Part shown: one piece after another, positions 1-14,693 of the stretch
Position numbering within the stretch: the stretch's first letter is position 1
Layout: each line of letters starts with the position of its first letter
Origin: Clostridium sp. NkU-1
Lineage (GTDB): Bacteria; Bacillota_A; Clostridia; Lachnospirales; Lachnospiraceae
Assembly (NCBI GenBank): GCA_001312405.1
Contig: BBDR01000021.1
Location: 10,396 to 74,395 of the forward strand
Reading direction: 5' to 3'
Length of the DNA stretch: 64,000 bases
Translations under genes and position numbers: made by a program
The notes under the pieces: generated by a model
Told to the model about the DNA's origin: nothing
The model's database searches: none
Seen by the model: the letters and a program-made list of their open reading frames with translations, nothing else

Positions 1-694
1 TTATATCCAACTCCCCACACCACCTTTAAATATTTCGGCTCCTTCGGGTTGATCTCGATCTTTTCCCTGATTTTCCTTACATGAACCATGATCGTATCTG
101 TGTTAATGGCCCGTTCATTCCAGACCCGCTCATAAATCTCTTCCGCGGAGAACACTCTTCCCGGGTTTTTCATAAGAAGAGCCAATATCTTAAATTCAAT
201 GGGAGTCAGCTTTACCGGCTTTTCATCAACGGTCACTTCCACCGTATCCTCATTCAGCTCCAGTCCTCCGATAGAATAAACATTGCTTTTTTCCCTCTGC
301 TCCTTTGCTTCCAGCATATCCATATATTTTTATAGCGCCTAAGCTGGGAATTCACCCTTGCCAACAGCTCCATGGGAGTAAATGGCTTTGCAACATAATC
401 ATCGGCGCCGATGTTAAGCCCCATGATCTTATCCACTTCCTCAGACTTTGCCGACAGGATGATCACAGGAAAATCATAGGTTTCCCTTAATTTCACGGTC
501 ATGGTAATGCCATCCATTCGGGGCATCATCACATCCACAATAGCCAGATGGATCTCTTCCTTCTCTAATATCTTAAGGCCTTCCACACCGTCCGCCGCCT
601 GAAACACCTCGTATCCCTGGCTCCTTAAATATATCACGATCCCCTCTCTGATCTCTTTATCATCCTCTACCAATAAAATGTGGTTTGCTTCCAT
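1..694 (-). CDS. OmpR/PhoB-family response regulator (3' end cut by window edge)
   Basis: Cytoplasmic two-component transcription factor. The N-terminal receiver shows the acidic pair in ILLVEDDKEIREG, the phospho-acceptor Asp in AIVDVMMPRMDG, the Ser of PVIILSAKSEE and the Lys of YVAKPFTP. The C-terminal winged helix shows PIEFKILALLMKNPGRVF and the recognition helix region NTDTIMVHVRKI, ending VWGVGY at the window edge, so only the last few codons are missing. The start at 694 (MEANHILLVEDD) has a GGAG ribosome site 8 nt upstream; an in-frame ATG further upstream lacks one. A one-base shift near 326-331 (AAAAATATAT) separates receiver and DNA-binding domain and is probably a sequencing error. 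No partner kinase is visible; it would lie before position 1. Confidence 0.9.
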
Positions 695-717
695 GTTTTC
701 TCTCCTTTCCCTTTTTC

Positions 718-762
718 TGTCCATTCTGTCTGGACATAGAGGTATGCCTGTAAGGCGTTCCT
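718..762. repeat. Dispersed two-hairpin repeat, family B, copy 1
   Basis: Intergenic element with two small stem-loops: TGTCC...GGACA followed by TATGCCT-GTA-AGGCGT. Related copies lie at 21571-21672 (two in tandem) and 27594-27641. Stem bases change in pairs between copies, so the folded form appears to be conserved. It lies just upstream of the response regulator gene. Function unknown. Confidence 0.7.
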
Positions 763-932
763 CATTTCTGCCCGGTTTTTAGGCAAAAAGGTATCCCCAT
801 TTATGATACCACATTTTCTATCTTTTTACTTTAATTAAAGGATACGGGAGCAATCTTAAATGGAAGGGCACAGAAAACGAAAGAAATTCTAAAATTTTCA
901 TCTCCTTCTTTATCAGGCATTTCCATAAAAGA

Positions 933-972
933 AAAGGCGCATCAGGATTTCCAAAATCCTTAATGCGCCTTT
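933..972 (-). terminator. Rho-independent terminator after yhaM
   Basis: Stem AAAGGCGCAT / ATGCGCCTTT enclosing a second paired segment AGGATT/AATCCT. Read on the minus strand, it starts 6 nt after the yhaM stop and runs into TTTTC TTTT. Confidence 0.8.
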
Positions 973-978
973 CCTATG

Positions 979-1922
979 TTATTCCGATGTCTTCCGTATA
1001 TTGCTTTCCATCAGCCGGTTATATCCCAGCCAGCCGTTATTGTCTCCTGCACCCTTTAACACCTCGATCATGGTCTCCATCTTGGCATCTGTATTATCTG
1101 CAAAATTCAAAGCCAATGCCTCAATCAAAGCCGGTTTTTTGGGAGAACCATATTCCAGCTCCCCATGATGGGCCAGAATGCAGTGCTTCAGCTCAGAAGC
1201 CGTCTTTCCGGAAACCTTCAATCGTCCGGATCCTCTCTCCCAGCATTTCCGTTCCAATGATGATATGGCCTAAAAGCTGCCCGTCATCGGTATAGTCGTT
1301 CTCCGGAAATGTGGAAAGCTCCCTGGTCTTTCCGACGTCATGGAACATGGCAGCGGTAATGAGCAGATCCCGGTTAATGAACGGGTAGTAGCCGGCGTAA
1401 TAATCGCACAGCTTTACAACACTTAAGGTATGCTCCAAAAGGCCGCCCACAAAGCCATGGTGAACGCTTTTCGCCGCAGAGTGAAACTGAAATGCTTTAG
1501 CAAAAGCAGCATCTTCTACAAAAAAAGCTTTCTGACAGCTTTCTTAAATAAGGGTTCTTAACCGTCCGGATAAAGCCCAGAAGCTCCTCAAACATTAGTC
1601 CGATATTCTTAGAGGAAACCGGAAGATAATCGCCGGGGGCAAATTCTCCCTCATCCGCTTTCCGGATCCGTTTGATATTTAACTGGTTGGAATTCTGGAA
1701 AACAGTCACATCTGCATCTATGTATACATAATCCAGAGTTTCAAAATTTCCGATTCCCGGTGAACCCAGATCCCAGATCTTGGCATCCACGGTTCCGGTC
1801 TTGTCCTGAAGAATCAGGTTTCCATATTCTTTTCCTGATTTCGTCAAAGCAATCTGCTTATTTTTACATAAATACACATCTGACACATGCATTCCTTCAC
1901 GGAATGAATCTACATACCTCAT
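979..1922 (-). CDS. yhaM: 3'-5' exoribonuclease YhaM family (OB-fold + HD domain)
   Basis: Cytoplasmic 3'-5' exonuclease that degrades single-stranded RNA/DNA. The N-terminal OB-fold region (about residues 15-110) has LILQDKTGTVDAKIWD. The HD phosphohydrolase domain has FVGGLLEHTLSVVKLC, then the metal-binding FHDVGK, and later CILAHHGELEYGSP. The reconstructed length of about 314 residues matches the family. The start at 1922 (MRYVDSFREGMHV) follows GGAGG with 7 nt spacing. Two one-base shifts are needed, near 1500-1540 and near 1205. The upstream HtrA-like gene ends 48 nt before it, so the two may share a transcript, which ends at the hairpin at 933-972. Confidence 0.9.
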
Positions 1923-1970
1923 TGTTTTCCTCCACATTCTTAGCCCCAGGCAACACGGAAGCCAGGAAGA

Positions 1971-3279
1971 TTACCTGGCTCCAATGGTTACCTGATACTG
2001 TATCTCTTTATATTCTTCCCTTCCATTGCGGGAAACACTCACAGTAATCACATCTCCTGGATTGGAATCCTCAAGCACTGCCTGAAAGTCCTTCATGGTA
2101 ACAATGGTTTCATCTCCCATGGTCCTTATAATATCGCCGCACTGGATCCCCGCATTATAGGCAGGACTATCTGCGTTCACATCAACCACATACACCCCAA
2201 GAGGCATACCGTTGCCATTCATAACGGCACTTACTTCCTGTCCCTTAATGCCAAAGTATGGGAATGGCACACCATTGCTTATCTTTTCCAGAATGGTCTT
2301 ATAATCGGATATGGCCATAGCTGCCGTCATATCCTTACTGTCGTCATTTTTATAATCATCCGTTACCCAGCCGATGATCTGGCCTGATGTGTTCATGAGG
2401 AACGTGCCGGTTCTGGCATTTCCCTTCACATCAGAATAAAGGATGCGCGTCATACCATCGGTAATCTGCACATTTTTCGTTATATACGATATAAATCCAT
2501 ATCCAGCAGAATGGACCATGCCGGCAGGGCCGCCAATGGCCACAACCAGATCCCCCTGCTTTACGGAATAGGAATTCCCTAACGGGATTGCCTTAATCTC
2601 CTCTAACAAAGCTCTTCCAAGATCCGCCGTGGAAACGCTTACGATGGCCATTCCGGAAAGCTTATCGGTCTGCTTAATGGTTCCCTGAACCTCTGACCCG
2701 TCAGAAAATGCCACACGGATAGCCTCCGCATCCTCAACTGCTTCATCTGATGTAAGCACCAGAAGCTCCTGGTTTGTAGAAGCAGTGATCACTCCGGAGA
2801 ACAGGCCGGAATTTTCTACAGGGTTGTTAAACCAGTCTGTCTGGGTCTTTACAGAGTGGACCGTTACAATCCCCTTGTCCACCTTTTGGACAAGAGACCT
2901 TAAGTTTCCATACAGGGTATTTAAATCATCTACTGAAAACGGATATTTCTCCATAGCGGACTTTAAAATATCCTCGATCGGTTCTGTCTCAGCCACAGAC
3001 CCTGTTTCAGCCTCAGAAGGCATAGTTTCAGGATCATCCTTTGGTATGGTCACAGGAACACTTTCACTGGTGGATCCTTTTGCAAAAAAATCTTTCAGCT
3101 ACAGGTCGGGATATGGCAAATGTAACAGCTGCAACAATTCCGAAAATAACCGCAGTCGCAATAAGGCCCAAAGCCCTTTTTAGCATATCCCTTTTTGACA
3201 TGGGCTGTCTCACTATCTTTTCATTGATAAACTGACGCGGCTCCGTCTTTCTATCATCTGGCCCGTTATTTTCCGGCAT
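1971..3279 (-). CDS. Membrane-anchored HtrA/DegP-like protein with PDZ domain, catalytic triad not conserved
   Basis: The N-terminus is cytoplasmic with one membrane segment (about residues 36-57, ALGLIATAVIFGIVAAVTFA). A trypsin-like fold and a C-terminal PDZ domain (PLGVYVVDVNADSPAYNAGI, then GDIIRTMGDE) follow, so the body is expected outside the membrane. Catalytic positions are altered: LVLTSDEAV stands where HtrA has TNxHV, KLSGMAIV lacks the DLAV aspartate, and GNARTGTFL replaces GNSGGPL. It is probably a pseudoprotease or scaffold/sensor; a true protease is unlikely. The start at 3279 follows AAAGGAGGG. A shift in an A7 run near 3085-3090 splits the anchor from the body. Length is about 435 residues. 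Confidence 0.85.
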
Positions 3280-3586
3280 ACTTACCCTCCTTTGCAGAAG
3301 ACCTAAGTACCATTATAAGGTTGTTCCACCCTTAATGCAAGAAAAAAACTACAGAAATAACATATCCATTACATAAATTACCGCAACAACATGGAATTTT
3401 CAGTCTGTAGGTAAGCAGACATGTTTCTCTTAATGGAGCGTTTTTAAAATTTATGAAAAAGATACGTTCTGACAATGCTCTTATCATATGCAGTTTAATG
3501 CATATATAAAGATGGGGGATGTGCCTCTATTCTTCCCTTTTCCCCCGTTCATATTAACTATATCAGTTGTCAATATATAAAACTTT
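3280..3586. other. Intergenic stretch, nothing recognised
   Basis: About 300 bases between the HtrA-like gene and the GNAT gene. AT content rises here toward the AT-rich cluster that follows on the right. No hairpin with a T-tract, RNA motif or small coding frame with a ribosome site was found. Confidence 0.5.
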
Positions 3587-4061
3587 TTATAAATTTACTT
3601 CTAAAAATAACCTTTGTGTTTTCATGCCTTTATGTTTGTAGAATTCCAAAGCATTTTTATTAAAATCCCAAGCCATGAGTTCTAACCTTTTTGCTCCTCT
3701 TGCCTCAGCTAATTGTTTTGCATATTGATACAATTTGCTTCCCACTCCGAGACCTTGATATTCATCACTAACGCAAATGCCATCAATATAGGCTATAAAG
3801 CTTGATACCATTGCCGGATTATTGGCGGAAATACGGAAAGTTATAATACATATGCCTGCAATCTCATCTCCATTGGATGCCACAAATATAGTTAAATTTT
3901 CTTCCTTCAATTTTTCAATATAATCTCCGTAGGTATATAGTTGTGCAATATTCTGATACAAATCAGGCCTATTATTTGCATGAATGTTATGCAATTTACA
4001 CATTAACTTATCAACCGTTTTATAATCGTTTTTTTGTTGCCTTTCTGACTTGTATATCCAT
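3587..4061 (-). CDS. GNAT-family N-acetyltransferase
   Basis: Predicted to transfer an acetyl group from acetyl-CoA to an unknown amine. The conserved acetyl-CoA motif is YIDGICVSDEYQGLGVGSKL (Q-x-x-G-x-G), followed by RLELMAWDFNKNALEFYKHK and GMKTQRLFL, the usual GNAT C-terminus. Correcting one extra A in the A7 run near 4027-4033 gives the natural N-terminus MDIQVRKATKNDYK starting at 4061; the uncorrected frame starts at 4066 with an atypical sequence. No strong ribosome site is visible. It lies about 110 nt downstream of tldE on the same strand, so it may belong to the RiPP operon as a tailoring or self-protection enzyme, or may just flank it. Confidence 0.8.
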
Positions 4062-4169
4062 AACAATTATCATAACTCAGTATTTTGACCGAATTTTCCT
4101 TTCCTTAAAATCTGTTGTCCAGCTATAAAGTGCAGTTAAACATATTTTCAACGCATAAAAATATATTTA

Positions 4170-5498
4170 TTAACCTTTTCCGCTTATTATAAAATTACTG
4201 AATAATATACTTGGACTTCCAAAAAGAGACTTAGAAGGTATTCCAAAATAAATGTCATTTCCAACAGCAAGAATCGATTTAAACAATTCATAAATATTAC
4301 CAGAAATAACAAATTGCTCAATAGCTGTGTTTCTGTTTTTAATAATTAAAATTCCTTTAGCCGGAAGGCTAAAATCTCCTGACGTTATATTTAACCCTGA
4401 ATTTAGTCCACTTATTTCCGTAACAACAATTACCTTATCGACCTTTTTTTTTAATTCTTCAAAAGATGTTCTTCCTTTTTTTAATGTATAGATTTGTTGG
4501 ATAAATACTTGTAGTTGTTCCATCTCCAGTAACATAACCATTTGATGTTGATTTCTTCCCCATCTTTATGCCCATTTTGACATTATATAATAAAGTAATC
4601 AATTTACCATTTTTTATAACATATTTTTTTATAGATGGTGTTCCTTCTTCATCATATTTACGATAATTATTATGCATTAATGGATTATCAATAATCGTCA
4701 ATAGGGGTGATGCAATTATAGTACCTTCTTTGTTTAATAAAATACTCAGGCCATTATAAACTCTTTCGGCTGAAAATATTGGAGCAATCTGTTGAAGCAA
4801 TTTTGTCATGACATCATTTTTAATAATAATGTTATATATCCCAGACTTCGGAGATTTTGATTCAATTTTTGCCAGTGTTTTATTAATAGCATCTTCAACA
4901 CATAAATTTATATCTATTTGATCGTTACATGATATGTAAGATAACCCTGAATACTTTCTTCCTTTCTTCTCCATCAAAACATTGATAGATAAATAGCCCG
5001 TATTATAAACTTGTCTTAAATTCATCCTATTTGAATTATAAATATTAACTATAATTTTTTTGGTATTATGCAGAATAGAAATAACCTTCAAGTCTGAGAT
5101 TCCTTTATTAAATATAGCTTTTTCAAGGCTTTTAGCTAAGCTGATTTTACAGACATTATTCATATCTACTAATTCACAATATTTCCTTTTTTTGCTTATA
5201 AACACAGTTGCCTTTTGTAACCTTTTCAACCTCTTTAACATATTGAGCATTATCAATTGCATGCATAACCAATATTTCCGGCTTTTCAAAACATTCAGTA
5301 TACGCACATCCTGTATTAATTTCCCAATTAATAGATAAACTAATACTTCTTTTGATGCGATAATATAATTATCTATCTCTCCATTTAATATATTAAACTG
5401 TGTTTTTTTCTTTTTTTAATATGTACTACTTCTACATAGTTACATCCTATTTCTTTAGTATACTCAAAAATTCTTTTAATATAATTATAGTTTTCCAC
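4170..5498 (-). CDS. TldE/PmbA-family component of a TldD/TldE peptidase
   Basis: Non-catalytic partner of the TldD/TldE heterodimeric metallopeptidase, known to trim the leader of microcin B17 and to process other modified peptides. The family C-terminus is clear: STSNGYVTGDG, GRTSFEELKKKVDKV, VVTEISGLNSGLNITSGDFS, LPAKGILIIKNRN, FVISGNIYELFKSILAVGND and PSILFSNFIISGKG. It carries no HExxxH motif, as expected for TldE. The GTG start at 5498 overlaps the end of tldD by 14 nt, implying translational coupling. At least four shifts (near 5410, 5350, 5190 and 4480), in A/T runs, must be corrected; the reconstructed length of about 443 residues is normal. Last gene of the recognisable RiPP operon. 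Confidence 0.85.
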
Positions 5499-6872
5499 GC
5501 TTTTTCTTACCACCAATTAAGATATTACTGACTTTTATTCTAGGTTGCCCTATTCCAACAGGTAGTTTACCTGACTTTGATACACACATGCCTTGTCCCA
5601 GTTCTAAATTATTAGCCACCTTTTCAATGTTCATTAATACTTCAGAACTTTTTCCTATTAAGGAAGCTCCTCTAATTGGATAACCTATTTTTCCGTCCTT
5701 TATCCAGTAGCTTTCGGTAACAGAGAAGTTAAATTCACCAGTTATTACATTGGCTGATCCACCTCCAACGTTTTTTTACATACAAACCTTCTTTAATATC
5801 TTTAAATAATGAATCAGGGTCATCTGTTCCCCCCACAATATATGTATTAGTCATTCTTGATGAAGGAATATATGTATAATTTTGGCGCCTACCATTTCCA
5901 GTACTTTTCTGCCCTAATTTTTCAGCCCCTGATTTATCAAATAAATATCTCTGTAATATACCATTCTTTATAATAACGGTATGCTGCGTTGCTGTTCCCT
6001 CATCATCAATACATGATGACCCCCAGCCTCCTCTTATTCTTCCATCATCAATGTATGTAACACAATCCGCAGCTATTCTAACACCTATTTTATTACTGAA
6101 TTCTGAATATCTTTTAACTGCATTATCAGATTCTAAGGGATGTCCACAAGCTTCATGAAAAATAACTCCACCAAAACCACTTTCTATAACTGCAGGGTAT
6201 GTTCCATATGGACATTCTGATGCGTGCAGCATATTAATTGCTGTCTGAGCAACATCTTTTCCAAAACCTTCACAATCAACATTATTCCAATATGAATATC
6301 CAGTACTTCCTCCAAGGGTCTTTATTCCTGTTTGACTATCCTTCTCATTAGATGCAACTACTTTCACAGTACATCGTGTTCTTGGTCTGTTATCATATTG
6401 AAAATTTCCTCCACTATCGCATATAAAAACATCTTGTTCAATATCAATATATTCCACACCAGCAAGATTAATTTCATTCGAAAAACCTTTTGCAGACTTA
6501 TATATATCAGATATAAGTTTGATTCTTTTAGCATTTGTAACATTATCAAATATCTTTTTTTTCAATTATTTTATTATTACTCATTGGTAAACTTATTGGA
6601 AAATATCCCAGCGATATCTCTGATGTTAATATTTTTATTAACTGGATTAATTTACTTTTAGAAAGGCTGTTTGTATATGAATATGCTGTTTTACCTTTCG
6701 CAATTATTCTTATACCGGCCCCATATATTTCCGAATATATTAAGTTCTTTATATCGCCATTTACTATAGATACTCCATTTTGTGTAGTATGTTCTGAAAA
6801 TATTTCTACATAATCTGCACCACGAGATAACCCTAGTTCTACTACTTCTTTTGCAATTCTTGCATCAACCAT
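5485..6872 (-). CDS. TldD-family metallopeptidase (catalytic subunit)
   Basis: Zinc peptidase that forms a heterodimer with TldE and cleaves unfolded or modified peptides. The metal site HEACGH (HExxxH) lies near residue 239 within GVIFHEACGHPLE. Further family signatures are GGWGSSCIDDEGT, YIPSSRMTNTYI, the C-terminal ITGEFNFSVTESYWIKDG, and PVGIGQPRIKVSNILIGG. The ATG at 6872 is preceded by AAGGTGAG; a GTG at 6887 is an alternative start. Frameshifts near 6550 (T9 run) and 5770 (T7 run). Reconstructed length is about 462 residues. It starts about 20 nt after the CapA-like gene. In this operon it is the best candidate for removing the precursor's leader. Confidence 0.9.
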
Positions 6873-6891
6873 TCTATTTACTCTCACCTTT

Positions 6892-8072
6892 TTATTGCTC
6901 TTTAATATTTATAGAGTCCAAATAAATATGTAATATATTCAAAATAATTTCTCTATGAGTTTCACTTCCTATCATACTTATAAATTTTAATATTTCTTTC
7001 TCAGATGCCCCATATTTGCAGAATAGCTTTTTATTCAGTTCTTTATTATCAAGCACTATATTTAATCTTTCAAAAAAATTTTCCGTAACCAAATAATTCT
7101 GAAAGATAATTATCACAGACCTTTATACAGTAATTATTCCATTTTTCTATTAATGCTGCATCATCACAAATAACACTGTTTAATTCTTCGATTTCTGTAT
7201 TAAACTTAATCAGATTTTCATCTTTCATAAGATCAATGCCATTCGAATTACAGTGCTGATCATATGGGATTATCTTATACGATGTTTTATTATAAAAATC
7301 TATATCAATTTGTACTAAATATCCCCTAAAAAAATTATTATATTTAATATCATAGTTAAATATGAAATTTCCCTGACCATACGATATAAATCCATCTTTA
7401 TAGTATTCTGTTCCACTCGTACAATGTGAATGCTGCCATAATATGCAACTTGCCCCTGAATCTATTAAGTTTTTACTTATATTTTTCATCCTTGGACTAG
7501 GATATCTGAAGAATTCTCTCCCTCCATGTAAAATTATAATCTTTACATCACATGTTTTCATATCATTGTATATTGTTTTTGCAATTCTGAAACAATCTAA
7601 AGAATTTGCTCCTGGTTCATAATCCGAAGCTAATTCATCTTCATTTTCTGCTGCTGATAGTATTCCTATTGTCTTATGATTAATATTTAATATCATAGGC
7701 TTTGATGCTTCTAATATATTTTTTTCCAAGACCAACAGTTTCAATCCCATATTCGCTACACGCTTTTAAAGTTGATATTATTCCTTCTTTACCGTAATCC
7801 TTAATGTGATTATTAGCTAAAGATAGATATTTTATATTTGCTTTCTTGATTGCATTCAAGCAATGTGGATTCGCAGCAAATTTGAATCCAATTTTTTTTA
7901 CTGGATTTATATCTTCACACAATGTTGATTCTAAGTTCGCAATAGCAATATCTGCACTTTGGAATAGATGAAGAGAATCACCAAATAATTCATCTACATT
8001 ACCCCCAATAAATAACTCCCTATCCTTCATGCTTGGACATATATCACTTGCTACAATAATTCTTGTATTCAT
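6892..8072 (-). CDS. CapA-like metallophosphatase-fold protein (PGA_cap domain)
   Basis: The fold is that of the poly-gamma-glutamate synthesis protein CapA, a calcineurin-like metallophosphatase superfamily. Motifs in order: IIVASDICPS, IANLESTL, YLSLANNHIKDYGKEGI, IIILHGGREFFRYPSP, ILWQHSHCTSGTEYYKDG and FISYGQGNFIFN. About 100 further residues follow. The HGGREFF and QHSHCTSG motifs retain metal-binding histidines. The start at 8072 (MNTRIIVASD) follows GAAGGTG. Frameshifts near 7690-7700 and 7090. It follows the methyltransferase by 44 nt in the same operon. No capsule genes are nearby and the precursor is rich in Glu/Asp, so an amide- or phosphate-related step on a peptide is possible but unproven. 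Confidence 0.75.
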
Positions 8073-8116
8073 AGTAACACCTTCTTCGCACTTAATACTA
8101 CTTTTAACAATAGTTT

Positions 8117-8946
8117 TTATTTTTCTGCAATTATACATGAGTAGACTACTTTTACTGGTAACGAACCTTCATTATCTGCATATGAGTTCATATTTTCCAC
8201 GAATTTTTTTCATCAATAAACTTTGCTTATCCTTTTCAACTAAGTTTAACCATTGATAACGAAACATCATGCGAAATAAATAATAATTTATAAAGCTTAT
8301 ACCATCTATAAATTCCATTGTGAAATTTTCTATTTTGATATTAATTACTTTATATGATAATTCCAATAAAACCTTATTATAATAGTCAATATCTTTTCGT
8401 TGCATAAATAAAATTTCATTATATTTTTTTTTAACATCTTTAATGTTTAATTCATCCAATGTATTAATAAATATGTCATTTATTATTTTCATTGAACTTG
8501 GTAATATAACTGTAAATATAATACGGCCACTTTTTTTAAGTATCCTATAACATTCTTTTAATACCACCTTCTTGTCCTTACATGCACTTATACCATTATT
8601 TGATAAAATAAAGTCCAGCCTTTCATCCTCAAACGGTGTCTTTTCAGCAAAGCCATTAACTGTTGTAATATTTGTTAATGACCTTGCCTTTGCTTTTGAT
8701 TCTAAAAGCTCAAGTGCTTTTTTTCCATGGATCTAAGGCATATATTTTTCCTTTATTTCCTAATCTGGCTGCTATCTCAAGAGAAGGAAATCCTGTCCCA
8801 CACCCTAAATCAAGTATATTCAGATTTACTCCAACCTTTATTTCATTTAGCAACGTAATGCCAAAATAAGCGCTCCATATTGGCAGATCATCATAGAATG
8901 GCGTTATATCATCCCAATTAGATATTTCACGATATATCTTCTCCAT
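8117..8946 (-). CDS. Class I SAM-dependent methyltransferase
   Basis: Rossmann-fold methyltransferase; motif I is ILDLGCGTGFPSLEIAARL with the acidic end of strand 2 in YALDPW, then FEDERLDFILSNNGIS (motif II/III) and the post-motif VLKECYRILKKSGRIIFTV. Substrate unknown; in this operon the modified peptide is the natural guess. The start at 8946 lies inside the last codons of the MFS gene (20 nt overlap), suggesting coupling. Shifts near 8720 and in an A7 run near 8210; after correction the C-terminus reads on to a stop at 8117 (ending VKVVYSCIIAEK). About 276 residues. Confidence 0.8.
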
Positions 8947-10175
8947 TTACGTTCACAACGTCCTTGTCTAATTTAAGATTTTTTAACAATACATATGTAA
9001 TAAGCATCATTAATAAAACAATGGCTAATAAAAATATTTGATATGTTAATGCAATAGAAGATGATGCATAATACCTGCCAATTTATCTGAAAGTCCAGCA
9101 AATAAAGTTCCAATACTTCCAAATAGCCAAATAGCAAATCTTCTAACAGCAAAAATCTGCCTTGTTTAGTAATAGGAACATTAGTCTGCCACCATGCCTG
9201 GCTACAAGCATCCATGATTTGATTAGCTATGGTAAAGATTATTACTCCGAATCCGCTGACCCATACAAACCTCTGATAACATATGATCAGCATTCCTAAA
9301 TATGAGAGGCTAACACCAATCTTGAATGACCTTCCAATTTTATCGCCTACACCTAAAGTGGTTATAAGTACTGCCCCTAATACTCCGCCAATGCCAAATA
9401 ATGTTTCAATATTACCATAGATTATGGAACCATTACTATACTCCGACAATATGTAAACCGGCAGGATAACGTTAATTGAATTACTTGCAAATATATATAT
9501 TGCACAAATGATAAGGACATATAACATATTTTTATTATCACCAATAAAAGTTATACTATCTTTAAGCGAATTGCAGCCCTCCTTAAAAGATATTGCCTGA
9601 TTAACTTCAAGTAACCTATTAGTAAGCCTTGTGAAACAAATTAGAATACATGATACTATTAATGTTAATAAATTTATAATATAAAAAAAAGGTAATGCTA
9701 AAAGCAGAGTACAAATAACCTCCTACGACAGGTGCCAGTATTGATGGCAATGCTGTAGCAACCATATAAAGACCATGTGCTCTGGCATATTGATTATCTT
9801 TAAGCAACGATGATGTTATAACAGAATACGCAGGAAATCTAAATGATTCTGTTAATCCAACGAGCAGATTAATTATAATAATTAATTGAACAGTTAAAAA
9901 AATCCTGCGTATATAAGAAGATAATGCTTAAACATACAATCAATTCTCCAATTTCGCTTACTAAAAGCATAAGCTTTCTATTTAGTTTATCCACTAAATA
10001 TGAGGCTAATGGTGATAATATAATCCTAGGAACAATAAATGATAATGTAAGTAGAGATAAAGCCATTGATGATGTTGTATTTTCATATACCCAAACTATT
10101 AATACAAATTCGCATAGTACTGTTCCAAAAGTCGAAAAAAAATTGGCTCATTAATATTTTTAACCAGTTTTTCAT
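8927..10175 (-). CDS. Major facilitator superfamily transporter, probable peptide exporter
   Basis: Polytopic membrane protein of about 416 residues with roughly 12 hydrophobic segments. The MFS signature after helix 2 appears as LVDKLNRKLMLLVSEIGE, and the second half starts near MLYVLIICAIYIFASNSINV. Overall style is that of drug or siderophore exporters (MFS_3-like), so export of the mature peptide and self-protection are the likely role. The start at 10175 (MKNWLKILMSQ) lies 11-12 nt after AAAGGTG. Frameshifts near 10140 (T8), 9905, 9690 and 9130-9080. A 270-nt AT-rich gap separates it from the preceding gene; no terminator is visible there. Confidence 0.8.
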
Positions 10176-10445
10176 ATTTATAAATACACCTTTCCATATC
10201 AATAGTTATAAAACTGCTTTATAAACCCTATATATTTTCACTTTTTCGTGCAATAACATTTATAGTAAATATTACTACAAGCTCCATATCTTAACGACTT
10301 TTACTGTGCCTTTATACATTTGATTATCACAAGTGTTTTGTTTTCAATGTAGTGTTTGTATTTTTAATAGTCACGTCGTCTACAATATACGGAATTTCAT
10401 CAGTTATTCGACAATTTTAAAATGGTGGAATATTTAGCACTTAAG

Positions 10446-12564
10446 TTAAAACTCTATTTGTTTCTTAAACATAGTATTCATATTGATTATATTTAAAACA
10501 TTTGGCTTTTCAATTAAATCCACCCTATTTTCAAAATTAATCATATCCGATAAGATATACAAAATTTGTTTCTTATAAAATTTAGATACTTCGGTACAAT
10601 CCTTTTCTCCAACTATATCCAGCGGTAAATATTTTTCATTTAGTTTAGTAAAAGACCCTTTCAAAATAGTTATTATATCTGAGATATGAATAAATATTTT
10701 AGTAGTATTAACTTCGTTTTCATTTAATTTCGATTCGAACCTAATTAGATCATTTATTTCTTTTGATATACATATTGCATACTTTCTAATCTTATCGGAA
10801 TTATCAATTTCATCTATACTCTTTTGAAATACAATTTCGTTTTCTGACAAATTTAATGTCTCTAGCAATTCTGATTTTTCAGATTTATTAAATAACTTAT
10901 ATTTATCATATAAAAGAACAGAAATATTTCTAATTTTTTCTTTCTTTCTCTGAGTTATACATATGACCCCATGATTAAAAAGTCTGTATAGAGACGAAAT
11001 ATAGTCATCATAATTATCAGACAAGAAATATTCGCTTAATTTTTTTTATTGATAAACCATCATCATTTTGCTTTTCCAATAATATATTAATTATACGTTC
11101 TTCTATATTATTTATTGAATCCAGTATAACTTTATAATCTCTTTTATTTATATAAAGCAAAATATATCTTGTTATCAAGAAATTAAGTCCAGACCTCAAA
11201 TATAATTTTTGTGCTTTTATTTCATCTTCTTTCATAGCTGCTTTGAAGTCGGCCATATTACATTTAAGCCATTTACTTTCAGAAGCTTGCCTCATCTTAT
11301 AAAAATTCTTGTCAAGAATATCAACTTCCCGGTATTGCTCTTTAAGATGTTTTTCACCTAACTCTTTATAATTAGCCATTGATATATTTCGAAGGTCAAT
11401 CCATTCGTTATCACTTCTTCTTATGCATTTTCCAAAATATGATATATTTTTTTTGGAAGATACATATCCAAATGGATATAAATCTTTAAGTTCTGCATAT
11501 TTATCTTCCCGCTTATATATCCATTGACTAATTGCCTTCAAAGGATTAACAGCAATTTTCCTACAGAAATAATGTGGTGATGAAACCTGCATAGGACAAT
11601 CACCTAAGAAGTAATTAATATTATTAATTGCAGCATAAAGTGAAATTATATCTTCAGACAATCCCTTTAAAATATATATGCGATTTGCAAGCGTTTTTGT
11701 ATCGTCAGTATATGTACCATATATCTTACTCACAAAATCATCTTCAAGAGTTCTGGATCCTGTAGCAGATAAAACTTTAATATTTGCGTATTCCCCATAT
11801 TCACGAAATCCAGTTAAATATGTACACATATTACAATATCTTGTATTCATATTTCCGGCAGCATCTTTCTTATATAAATCATCGAGCATACCTATGTCAA
11901 CATTATTTACTTTAAAATCAAAACCATATTCTTTTGCCACATTTTCGGCATTTTTTTGGCGCTCATCGTCATAATGTCCTAGACCAATGTTATTATACAC
12001 ACATTTTACATCTATATTACTCCCATGCTGTTCTCTGTAGTTAGCGAGAAAATAAGCCGCTATTGTTGAATCCCGTTCACCTGAAAGCCCTATATCAACA
12101 GTAAATCCACTCAAAGGTTCCTTTTTACTTATATTATTAAATGCAAATTTTTTAACTGCTCTTGTGAAACAATCCTTGCAATACGCTACGATTGATGAAT
12201 GGTCTGCTTCACCTTTTTCATTAGTCAATAAATTTAATTCATCAATGAAAACTGCATTTTGTTTTTTACAGCATGAGCAGATTTTAACTTTAGCTGTATT
12301 GGGCTTTGAAAAAGGTACTACTGAACCCTTATTAACAGCTACAATAATAATATTATCGTCTTTTGTACAATATGAATTTGCATTCCAAAGCCTTGTTCCA
12401 TTTTTATAAACTAAAAATTTCGAAAAAAAGGTATCCATTGAAACAAATTGTTGTAATTCATTGTTATAACCAATCAATTTTAACCATATCGAATTAAATG
12501 AACCGCTATAATCACATTCATTTTCAATATGCAATTTTCCAGGATAATGTATAATAAAATTCAT
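10446..12564 (-). CDS. TtuA/Ncs6-like PP-loop sulfurtransferase fused to a C-terminal winged-helix domain
   Basis: Adenylating sulfur-insertion enzyme family (relatives 2-thiolate tRNA). Residues 1-90 look like a beta-grasp fold (KNGTRLW...DDNIIIVAV), only suggestive. A zinc-ribbon signature as in TtuA follows: C96xxC99 and C129xxC132-Phe. The PP-loop is SGERDS at 161-166 (canonical SGGxDS). C244xxC247, with C323 or C334, matches the three-Cys [4Fe-4S] site of TtuA, and ATGSRTLEDD matches its GH-x-DD segment. The frame breaks in an A8 run at about 11040-11047; removing one A joins it to the next frame through DDGLSIKKLSEYF and LYRLFNHGVICI, a winged helix resembling PqqD/RRE modules, giving about 705 residues. 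Otherwise the last 192 codons would be a separate TTG-started gene. The ATG at 12564 follows AAAGGAG. Confidence 0.75.
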
Positions 12565-12603
12565 TATTGTAACTCCTTTATAAATTTAATGGATAGTATT
12601 CAT

Positions 12604-13605
12604 TTAAATACTTGTAGCAAGTGCATTATAATACGCATCGTTAATGGTCTTTTTTAGTCTGCAATAATCTAAGATTTTCTTTTCTGCCGTCACATACTTG
12701 CTTTTCTTTTTCCAAAGCCATTTTACATTTGAGCACTCTGGGAACCAATCACATTCATTATCCTCACAATCATGCTTCGGATAATTCAAATCAATAAAAT
12801 TCAAAAGATTTCTCATTGCTTCTTTATCTGAAACAACACCAATCATATGCTTGTTTTCAAAATTCAATTCTGATAAATATGTTTTTTTCTTATGATGACA
12901 TGCATTATAGATTGGTGATATATATGAAAAATAATCAAAATATGTTTTCCCTTTAAAGTCTCTTACCACCCTATATAAGTTATCATATAAAGATTCCAAC
13001 TGTTCATCTGTAGGGGATTCATAAGCTCCATAATTAATCTCCTGAATTTTAGGAAGCAAACCAATTTCTTCATAAACTATTCTACTTATTTCATAAATAT
13101 CTTTGAAGTTTTCATTTCTTACTACAGTTACACCAGGAAGCAAACGGAAATCTTCAGAATCATACTTTTTCATTATTTTCATTATTTCGTAAGGATTCAT
13201 TGCTCCTGGATCAGGATTTAAAGGATTTTCTATAGAAATCATACATGCAGACAATGAACTTCTTCTTGCTTTTTCAATCCAGTTTTCGCTAATTCCATTC
13301 CCAGCGGTTAAGAAATATGGTTTAACTCCTGTAATTTTATAACCCATATCAGCTATTTCAAACAATCTGTCTCCTAATACAATTGGATCACCGCCGCTAA
13401 ATCTATAATCAACATTATGTCCCTCAATATTTTCTTTAAAATAATTAATAAAGTTAAAATAATTGATTAACTGACTATTTGACATATCTCTAGCTGATTT
13501 TTTTGTAACGTGTTCAAAGAAATGACAATAGGTACAATGCATATTACATTTTTCGGTAACTATTATACTAAAACTATATTCATTGATTTTATCTCCAGTA
13601 TCCAT
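12604..13605 (-). CDS. Radical SAM peptide-modifying enzyme with SPASM-like C-terminal cysteines
   Basis: The radical SAM motif CNMHCTYC (C20, C24, C27) is followed by the SAM-binding GGDP in YRFSGGDPIVLGDRL. The C-terminal third carries a cysteine cluster typical of SPASM/twitch auxiliary [4Fe-4S] sites: one Cys in YNACHHKKK, then CEDNECDWFPEC (C-x4-C-x5-C), and a last Cys in DYCRLKK. About 333 residues, frame intact. I chose the ATG at 13605 because GGAG lies 10 nt upstream; a longer reading to 13671 would run into the attenuator hairpin. It lies immediately after the precursor gene. SPASM enzymes typically crosslink, epimerise or decarboxylate RiPP precursors; with no Cys in the substrate, thioether formation is unlikely. 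Confidence 0.88.
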   Translation of the reverse strand: MDTGDKINEYSFSIIVTEKCNMHCTYCHFFEHVTKKSARDMSNSQLINYFNFINYFKENIEGHNVDYRFSGGDPIVLGDRLFEIADMGYKITGVKPYFLTAGNGISENWIEKARRSSLSACMISIENPLNPDPGAMNPYEIMKIMKKYDSEDFRLLPGVTVVRNENFKDIYEISRIVYEEIGLLPKIQEINYGAYESPTDEQLESLYDNLYRVVRDFKGKTYFDYFSYISPIYNACHHKKKTYLSELNFENKHMIGVVSDKEAMRNLLNFIDLNYPKHDCEDNECDWFPECSNVKWLWKKKSKYVTAEKKILDYCRLKKTINDAYYNALATSI

Positions 13606-13658
13606 AATAATATACTCCATTTCCAACTTATAATTTAAAATTTTTATGTTGAGAAATA

Positions 13659-13692
13659 TTGTAACTGGCACCCTGCGGGATGCCAGTTACAA
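13659..13692 (-). terminator. Attenuator-type hairpin between precursor and biosynthetic genes
   Basis: Perfect 12-bp stem TTGTAACTGGCA / TGCCAGTTACAA with a C-rich/G-rich apical part (CCCTGCGGG). It starts 12 nt after the precursor stop codon and is followed on the minus strand by TATTTCTC, a weak T-tract. This placement usually keeps precursor mRNA more abundant than the downstream enzyme mRNA. It may act as a partial terminator or as a 3' stabilising stem. Confidence 0.8.
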
Positions 13693-13704
13693 TTCTGTGC
13701 TCGA

Positions 13705-13812
13705 TTACTCTACATTAACGTCTGAAGAATAAGCATGCATTTCAGGAGCGTCTTCTTCCAAGTCTTCTGAAAAAGCAGTTAATGCATTTAAAATTTCTTC
13801 TGTTTTAGACAT
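13705..13812 (-). CDS. Putative RiPP precursor peptide, 35 residues
   Basis: Short gene with a near-perfect AGGAGG ribosome site 8 nt before its ATG, stronger than most in the window. The N-terminal half (MSKTEEILNALTAF) looks like an amphipathic leader helix; a very acidic middle (SEDLEEDAPE, residues 15-24) leads to the C-terminal EMHAYSSDVNVE. There is no Cys or Trp and no Gly-Gly; candidate modification sites are Met25, His26, Tyr28, Ser29, Ser30, Asn33 and the acidic residues. It is the first gene of the operon, separated from the radical SAM gene by a strong hairpin, which is the classic precursor position. I do not recognise the family; the core/leader border is inferred. Confidence 0.75.
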   Translation of the reverse strand: MSKTEEILNALTAFSEDLEEDAPEMHAYSSDVNVE

Positions 13813-13847
13813 AACATTTTCCTCCTTTTCATAATTTTATACTATTA

Positions 13848-13898
13848 GTCCTATTAATATATATCTTTTCAAATATATAATAAAAGGATAAATAGGAC
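13848..13898. promoter_or_regulatory. Inverted repeat upstream of the precursor gene
   Basis: GTCCTATT (13848-13855) is exactly mirrored by AATAGGAC (13891-13898), about 35-85 nt before the precursor start and bracketing a very AT-rich stretch. It could be an operator or a 5'-UTR structure. A promoter is expected nearby but no unambiguous -35/-10 pair could be fixed. Confidence 0.35.
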
Positions 13899-14693
13899 CG
13901 CAATGGAATAAATAATACTAAAACTGGAAACATTTAAATAACTGTTCTAAAAACTATACATGACACAAAAACCGTCGCTAGATTAAGAATATTCATAGAT
14001 AACAGTTTAAGTCCATAAACATATCTATCTTACCGGATAATCCTTTCTGTATTAACGGTAACAAAAGAAAGCACTGCAATGATATGCACATATTAGCAAA
14101 TAATTTTTACATCCAAATATACTGCTTACCTGTTTTTAATCAAAAACCGCCTACTTTCTTTAAGTAAAAAAAAGTCTACTAAAATTCAGATCTTTTAGCA
14201 ATATTTTTTCAATTTCTCTCATAAAAAATGCAAAAAGTCTTTTTTTCTATCATGTCAATAAAATACATAGGTGATTTCTCATTTTGTAGTGCTGATTCAG
14301 CATAAGGTTTTATGGTGAAACATGATGTCAAAACGCCTTTTTTTAATTTTAATTAGATGCACATGAAAATTACGGTAATTTATTAAAGTTATCATTCTTA
14401 ATTCTCCTGCTTACCTAATTATTATGTACAAAAATTATATTAGGGACCTGCCACCGAAGATTGTATCTCCTACCTTAATATAACTTTATTCATAAGTATC
14501 CTTTCTGAAATGGAAATTGGAATTTTGATTTCATCTTTGAGTAAAGGGGGTGCGGAATTTAAATTTTTAATTCAGGCATTTCATCTTTGTTCTTTATTTG
14601 ATTGCAGCCATCGGTTACGATATGCTATACTGTAACAGATACCATCATTACCGGACCACAATGCAGAGAAAGCAGAAAAACAAGGAATAATAT
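13899..14693. other. Long AT-rich divergent intergenic region between RiPP operon and mutS2
   Basis: About 800 bases of low-GC DNA. It must carry the promoters of the precursor operon (leftward) and mutS2 (rightward). The only coding-like trace is the broken minus-strand frame at 14160-14395. GC content rises within the last 100 bases before mutS2, marking the right edge of the AT-rich island. Confidence 0.5.
14160..14395 (-). pseudogene. Possible broken small gene, unrecognised
   Basis: An ATG at 14395 preceded by GCAGGAG (7 nt spacing) opens a 32-codon frame that stops at 14297. With two one-base corrections the sense-like reading continues (pieces YAESALQNEKSPMYFIDM and MREIEKILLKDLNFSRLFF) to a stop at 14160, about 75 residues. 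The amino-acid content looks protein-like and the ribosome site is good, but I recognise no family and the frame depends on assumed indels. It could instead be chance coding in AT-rich DNA. Confidence 0.3.

Follow-up and report, generated by a model that had tools for sequence, protein, structure and literature searches.

Several described systems share parts of the gene set considered here. The enzyme CtaC, as presented in the excerpt of PMC6772006, carries the cluster motif of TtcA and TtuA, requires ATP and sulfide, and loses its activity when its Fe-S cluster is lost. In microcin B17 biosynthesis, according to the excerpt of PMC10885120, TldD/E trims the peptide until the modified residues block the channel. 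We analysed a stretch of 64,000 nucleotides (nt) from contig BBDR01000021.1 of Clostridium sp. NkU-1 (hereafter the window), in which an AT-rich island carries genes for a 35-residue peptide, a radical S-adenosylmethionine (SAM) enzyme and a TtuA-like PP-loop enzyme, followed by genes for an exporter of the major facilitator superfamily (MFS), a methyltransferase, a CapA-like protein, TldD and TldE. On balance, and somewhat above even chance, we favour the reading that the island is a horizontally acquired cluster for a ribosomally synthesized and post-translationally modified peptide (RiPP), in which the radical SAM enzyme would act at a Tyr-Ser-Ser-Asp motif and the PP-loop enzyme would install a thioamide, followed by methylation, TldD/E trimming and MFS export. 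The original prediction, made by a model from the letters of the window, knew of no class with this gene set; none was found among the open-licence papers listed, judged by title and the opening of the abstract, nor was any paper on a YSxD motif, and as far as our searches of that literature went the cluster is undescribed. The features that carry the argument are as follows.

3359..14619, no strand assigned: AT-rich island between an HtrA-like gene and mutS2, defined by alignment to the nearest genome (G001) and by GC content
13705..13812, minus strand: precursor peptide of 35 amino acids (aa) with AYSSD near its C-terminus; a single open reading frame (ORF) with a Shine-Dalgarno-like AGGAGG and a motif common to 10 other loci
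13658..13693, minus strand: perfect 16-bp hairpin between the precursor and radical SAM genes, -27 kcal/mol
12604..13671, minus strand: radical SAM enzyme whose C-terminal part has one four-Cys site; PF04055, 74 homologues, alignment and model; single frame
10446..12564, minus strand: TtuA/NcsA-like PP-loop enzyme in pieces 12564-11017 and 11045-10446; NcsA/TtuA matches and Cys triad

The precursor is the best-backed part of the cluster, and its pairing with the radical SAM gene is strongly supported. A search of genome contigs with 35 aligned radical SAM relatives gave 15 loci, of which the nine clear relatives (L002-L010, 34-50% identity) were used and L011-L016 (23-31% identity over short stretches) were left out. 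The hosts of the nine are Micavibrio, Chlamydiales, Parcubacteria, Clostridiaceae, Moranbacteria, an alphaproteobacterium, two Lachnospiraceae and Butyribacter intestini; a tenth locus, L029, lies on a Caballeronia plasmid. The radical SAM sequence of L003 is without its N-terminal part and that of L005 is split. In 10 of the 10 other loci, the radical SAM gene of this family adjoins a short ORF that encodes [YW]-S-[STF]-[DG]. The window precursor ends in HAYSSDVNVE, and the others end in VFYSSGITPLEPR (L002, a YSSG variant), VSYSTDPPEDRILPV (L003, a 93-aa ORF downstream of the radical SAM gene), LGYSTDSC (L004), MAYSTDLIR (L005), IAYSTDMRP (L006), CQYSTDAGSGGND (L007), IAYSTDLLTHTI (L008), MAYSFDLKVTV (L009), CSYSTDLT (L010) and IMWSSDSF (L029). 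Across loci the precursors have 28-93 residues, and their leaders have little in common beyond the motif. Upstream regions of ten loci (window included, L003 excluded) were shuffled 400 times each under a first-order Markov model: Y[ST][ST]D was seen in 7 of 10 loci against 0.0025 expected, and the wide motif in all ten against 0.055 expected. Further genome sampling, with a positive control that recovered 9 of 9, gave no radical SAM locus in sets of 25 and 391 genomes and only the already-known member in samples of 379, 43, 151, 28 and 33; three distant matches (27-28% identity over short stretches) were found in viral contigs.

Between the two genes, the window hairpin had a z score of -8.2, and none of 200 shuffles was equally stable. 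Comparable hairpins of other sequence are present in L002, L005, L006 and L009 and weak ones in L008 and L010; none occurs in L004, L007 and L029, where gaps of less than 35 nt leave no room. The window hairpin is likely an attenuator, which would hold enzyme levels under peptide levels. With the YSSD motif conserved across phyla beside the same radical SAM family and a hairpin in several loci, the reading of the 35-residue ORF as a RiPP precursor gained support. Co-occurrence of the gene families held for the precursor and radical SAM genes and failed for PP-loop, CapA and TldD/E, which are missing from the sister loci, and the constant core so far is therefore the first two genes. To this extent, one of the outcomes that the original prediction named as counting against it did occur. 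Since the precursors are 28-93 residues long and this core is two genes, laboratory reconstitution is feasible. If the reading is right, the pair would define a small family of radical SAM-modified peptides that occurs here and there among Clostridia, Proteobacteria, Chlamydiae and bacteria of candidate phyla.

The radical SAM enzyme scored 31.6 bits with PF04055 (cut-off 29.5); an alternative start near 13620 is that of the 99%-identical protein P0008. In an alignment of 35 rows, the CX3CX2C motif (C25, C29 and C32 of P0008) and four C-terminal Cys are invariant. A full SPASM domain has seven Cys. The enzyme had been called radical SAM/SPASM-like, of which the first part stands and the second needs softening: the four invariant Cys do not form the seven-Cys pattern, and the enzyme therefore probably carries one auxiliary cluster. 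The predicted structure has a confidence score (pLDDT) of 90, and its nearest fold is the sulfatase maturase anSME, followed by DesII, viperin, SkfB and SuiB. Like the enzymes SuiB and SkfB and those of the triceptides and ranthipeptides, the island enzyme is encoded next to a small precursor whose core motif is conserved, and it resembles SkfB and SuiB, among others, in fold; it differs from these RiPP maturases in having four rather than seven C-terminal Cys, and none of the 25 NCBIfam models shown for it reached its cut-off. The reaction would take place around the aromatic residue in the motif, and most likely it would join the Tyr ring to a neighbouring residue in a cyclophane-type crosslink.

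For the PP-loop gene, the TtuA-like family assignment was confirmed, and the predicted length of 515 aa was too short: the gene continues in another frame to 10446, with the frame change near 11020-11072, and its relatives have about 705 aa (684-721). The enzyme is thus more than twice as long as TtuA, and it is very rare. Seven database proteins match it, one of which is probably the window's own; P0001, P0003, P0004 and P0005 align to both pieces, and P0006 and P0007 to the first piece alone. Only the best 8000 and 7997 candidates were scored in the two protein searches, so more distant relatives may exist. The gene with surrounding DNA was found in none of the genome contigs, viral contigs, plasmids and phages searched, and a scan of 397 genomes from the family of the nearest genome gave one weak match (E 2e-4). 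In three of the six full-length relatives, the PP-loop and radical SAM genes lie on contigs of equal length and source. A Cys triad (C244, C247 and C323 of P0001) is invariant in six relatives, in line with NcsA, and two CxxC pairs are also kept. The only sequence matches are the sulfur-inserting enzymes NcsA and TtuA; the VIA-align rows of the protein cover residues 106-366 only. The island enzyme therefore shares its fold, Cys triad and CxxC pairs with these tRNA thiolases, but differs from them in its ATP signature (SGERDS, invariant in its family, for the usual SGGKDS), its extra domains and its radical SAM/TldDE setting. A plain tRNA thiolase was set aside on the grounds of length, rarity and context.

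Among the Foldseek fold matches of the PP-loop protein was one heterocyclase, 4v1v_B, which we take to be LynD. This single fold match suggests that the C-terminal half may bind the leader; hhalign comparison of this half with three heterocyclase partner proteins gave no signal. The N-terminal domain has a predicted strand-helix order that resembles the beta-grasp of ThiS/MoaD, and no sequence match supported a beta-grasp assignment. Like CtaC as described in the excerpt of PMC6772006, the island enzyme belongs to the PP-loop/AANH superfamily, has a three-Cys motif of the TtcA/TtuA type, comes from an anaerobe and is expected to act on a peptide-like substrate. The same excerpt gives the substrate of CtaC as a carrier-protein-bound nonribosomal chain, whereas the island enzyme has an adjacent ribosomal precursor. 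The island protein also has large extra N- and C-terminal parts. Because CtaC, a PP-loop Fe-S enzyme, thioamidates a carrier-bound peptide, peptide thioamidation is the best reading, and by analogy with this one precedent it is plausible that the island enzyme is a peptide thioamide synthetase. It would activate an amide oxygen by adenylation, after which AMP would be displaced by sulfide bound to a [4Fe-4S] cluster of the enzyme (+16 Da, thioamide). If so, a PP-loop Fe-S enzyme acting on a ribosomal peptide would add a route to thioamides beside YcaO (ribosomal) and CtaC (nonribosomal).

In five of the nine genomes (L002, L004, L006, L007 and L010) a tyrosyl-tRNA synthetase (TyrRS) gene was found within 3 kb of the radical SAM gene; by chance, 0.07 genomes would be expected within 4 kb (P about 2e-9, from rounded genome sizes). 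In four of the five genomes the nearby TyrRS comes on top of another copy; in L007 no other was found. When 14 TyrRS were placed in a tree, two changes were needed to account for the five neighbours, which share one side with two housekeeping copies. An extra copy of the target gene next to an antibiotic cluster is a well-known sign of self-resistance, and TyrRS poisoning was therefore considered. The neighbours hint at a tyrosine-mimicking product in those sister loci; TyrRS as the target is speculative. Taken further, the family could be a new RiPP class, "YSxD radical peptides", in which the Tyr/Trp-Ser-x-Asp core would be remodelled to mimic tyrosine or tyrosyl-adenylate and poison TyrRS, with the spare TyrRS as immunity and the island adding the first PP-loop Fe-S thioamide synthetase on a ribosomal peptide; we offer this tentatively and think it well short of probable. 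It is weakened because no TyrRS was found in the window or nearby in the other four genomes and the plasmid stretch. The TyrRS neighbours of the sister clusters offer a specific and directly testable target. At L010:12290-15166 of B. intestini, a T-box leader and group II intron matches precede a 639-aa TyrRS with an N-terminal extension of about 240 residues, which sits 2.2 kb after the radical SAM gene. At L006:11136-12101, a 322-aa TyrRS-like protein in which no S4 domain was recognised is encoded beside the radical SAM gene and may not charge tRNA.

Several points weigh against the thioamidated, crosslinked RiPP that we favour. The PP-loop gene is present in none of the 10 sister loci, and a second complete cluster was not encountered. 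The wide motif was defined only after the peptides had been inspected, and its variants include YSSG in L002, YSFD in L009 and WSSD in L029, for which no Shine-Dalgarno sequence was found. The closest fold of the radical SAM model is a sulfatase maturase, and nothing in the sequences points specifically to a crosslink as the outcome of the radical step. SGERDS departs from the usual signature, the LynD-like C-terminal half is a single Foldseek hit with no sequence or profile signal, and the island showed no recognisable sulfur-mobilising enzyme. The modified product is itself predicted from sequence. The asparagine synthetase-like enzyme of nitrilobacillin biosynthesis is of the PP-loop type. 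It makes a C-terminal nitrile according to the excerpt of PMC13060819, and the island enzyme might likewise perform other ATP-dependent chemistry on a RiPP, giving an azoline, a C-terminal amide or a nitrile. The unusual signature and the YcaO gene in the cluster of L002, the closest readable relative, agree with such chemistry, but the retained Fe-S Cys triad and the restriction of sequence matches to NcsA and TtuA speak for sulfur transfer, and we regard this alternative as unlikely. Azoline heterocyclases and YcaO-TfuA thioamide RiPPs share ATP-dependent backbone chemistry with the island as we read it; they differ from it in that no YcaO (PF02624) was present among ten scanned island ORFs and that sequence and profile tests for a shared leader-binding (RRE/ThiF-like) module were negative. 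More improbable is a TyrRS-linked scheme in which the whole family makes a tyrosine-derived small molecule on a scaffold (pearlin-like) and TldD/E releases it. The TyrRS genes in five of nine genomes would fit, as would the ammosamide pathway, in which TldD/E-like proteases free the modified residue from a scaffold (excerpt of PMC12715798); against it, the window has no TyrRS, a peptide-aminoacyl-tRNA ligase was not recognised in the ten scanned island ORFs, and further residues usually follow the motif. The least credible alternative, in our view, is a cluster for sulfur modification of tRNA or a small molecule with a chance short ORF: the closest solved relatives of the PP-loop enzyme do thiolate tRNA, but the short-ORF motif is conserved across phyla, and the length and rarity of the PP-loop protein set it apart.

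The island could also be decayed and non-functional, since frame changes split six of its eight genes (PP-loop, MFS, methyltransferase, CapA-like, TldD and TldE); only the peptide (13812-13705) and radical SAM (13671-12604) genes are single open frames. The database record P0002, a piece of the PP-loop protein, stops at the same frame change and may be the window's own sequence. The housekeeping flanks are equally affected, however. G001 has 63 flank ORFs with a length of 120 aa or more, and 45 of them match the window; 20 of these 45 are broken into several pieces, which for 19 lie in different frames, and MutS2 is in four pieces. The flanks also contain 98 indels of 1-2 nt in 47,870 aligned columns, 35 of them in homopolymers of at least 4. 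The splits are a property of the whole window sequence and therefore most likely sequencing errors rather than decay; a pseudogene island was set aside on this ground, and we hold decay to be very unlikely. The split housekeeping genes relative to G001 across 1-4000 and 14694-64000 suggest a low-accuracy assembly, and gene calls from the window therefore need care.

The island itself is likely to have been gained by horizontal transfer. At the equivalent site of G001 only about 106 bp are found, and genome G322 is likewise without the island, whereas the flanks are 94-96% identical to G001 in most blocks and 90% in one. The cluster has 25-32% GC per kb, compared with about 43-50% for most of the flanking sequence; the AT-rich block noted in the original prediction is real, and relative to G001 it is an insertion. 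The island ends showed no direct repeats of at least 11 bases, and no integrase was present among ten scanned island ORFs. The eight same-strand genes listed by the prediction were all recovered on the minus strand from 13812 to 4170, about where they had been placed. The remaining five are as follows.

8973..10147, minus strand: MFS exporter, broken by frame changes into three or more pieces; PF07690, TIGR00900
8172..8946, minus strand: SAM-dependent methyltransferase in two frame pieces; PF08241 at 44.6 bits (cut-off 21.2), N-terminal piece found
6892..8138, minus strand: CapA-like (PGA_cap) protein, broken by frame changes into two or three pieces; PF09587 on two of them at 75.1 and 87.6 bits (cut-off 27)
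5485..6908, minus strand: TldD-like protease subunit in three frame pieces; PF01523, PF19290, PF19289; HEACGH
4170..5516, minus strand: TldE-like subunit in three frame pieces; PF19290, PF19289

One MFS piece scored 24.8 bits with PF07690 (cut-off 33.4); the TIGR00900 match, at 45.6 bits, was also under its cut-off. The last CapA-like piece (7116-6892) was assigned by position alone. TldD has the HExxxH motif (HEACGH) and its partner subunit does not, HExxxH being absent from all three TldE pieces, which is the TldD/TldE pattern. In the pathway proposed here, the methyltransferase would likely methylate the product, TldD/E would degrade the leader as far as the modified motif, the MFS protein would export the product, and the CapA-like protein could serve a hydrolase-type release or tailoring step. 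As in microcin B17, ammosamide and biphenomycin (excerpts of PMC10885120, PMC12715798 and PMC12257519), an HExxxH-type TldD is the likely maturation protease, whereas the other modifying enzymes differ. The excerpt of PMC10885120 describes TldD/E as often encoded outside the cluster; here both subunits are inside the island. Downstream of TldE, the island also encodes a GNAT acetyltransferase (PF00583, window 3587-4066), which could serve self-protection or be unrelated.

Apart from the core pair, the gene set differs between sister clusters. In L008 and L009 the radical SAM gene is followed by one for an MFS protein, and L005 encodes an MFS-like fragment of 192 aa (25.4 bits, under the cut-off). 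In Micavibrio (L002:7725-14804), genes for a pyridoxal phosphate-dependent decarboxylase, the YSSG peptide, the radical SAM enzyme, YcaO, TyrRS and an AstE/AspA-like hydrolase lie together; the nearest NCBIfam model of this YcaO is SagD, just under its cut-off. In B. intestini (L010:10944-12213), a P-loop kinase-like protein and a protein that has both an NDK-like and a ClpS-like stretch are encoded after the radical SAM gene.

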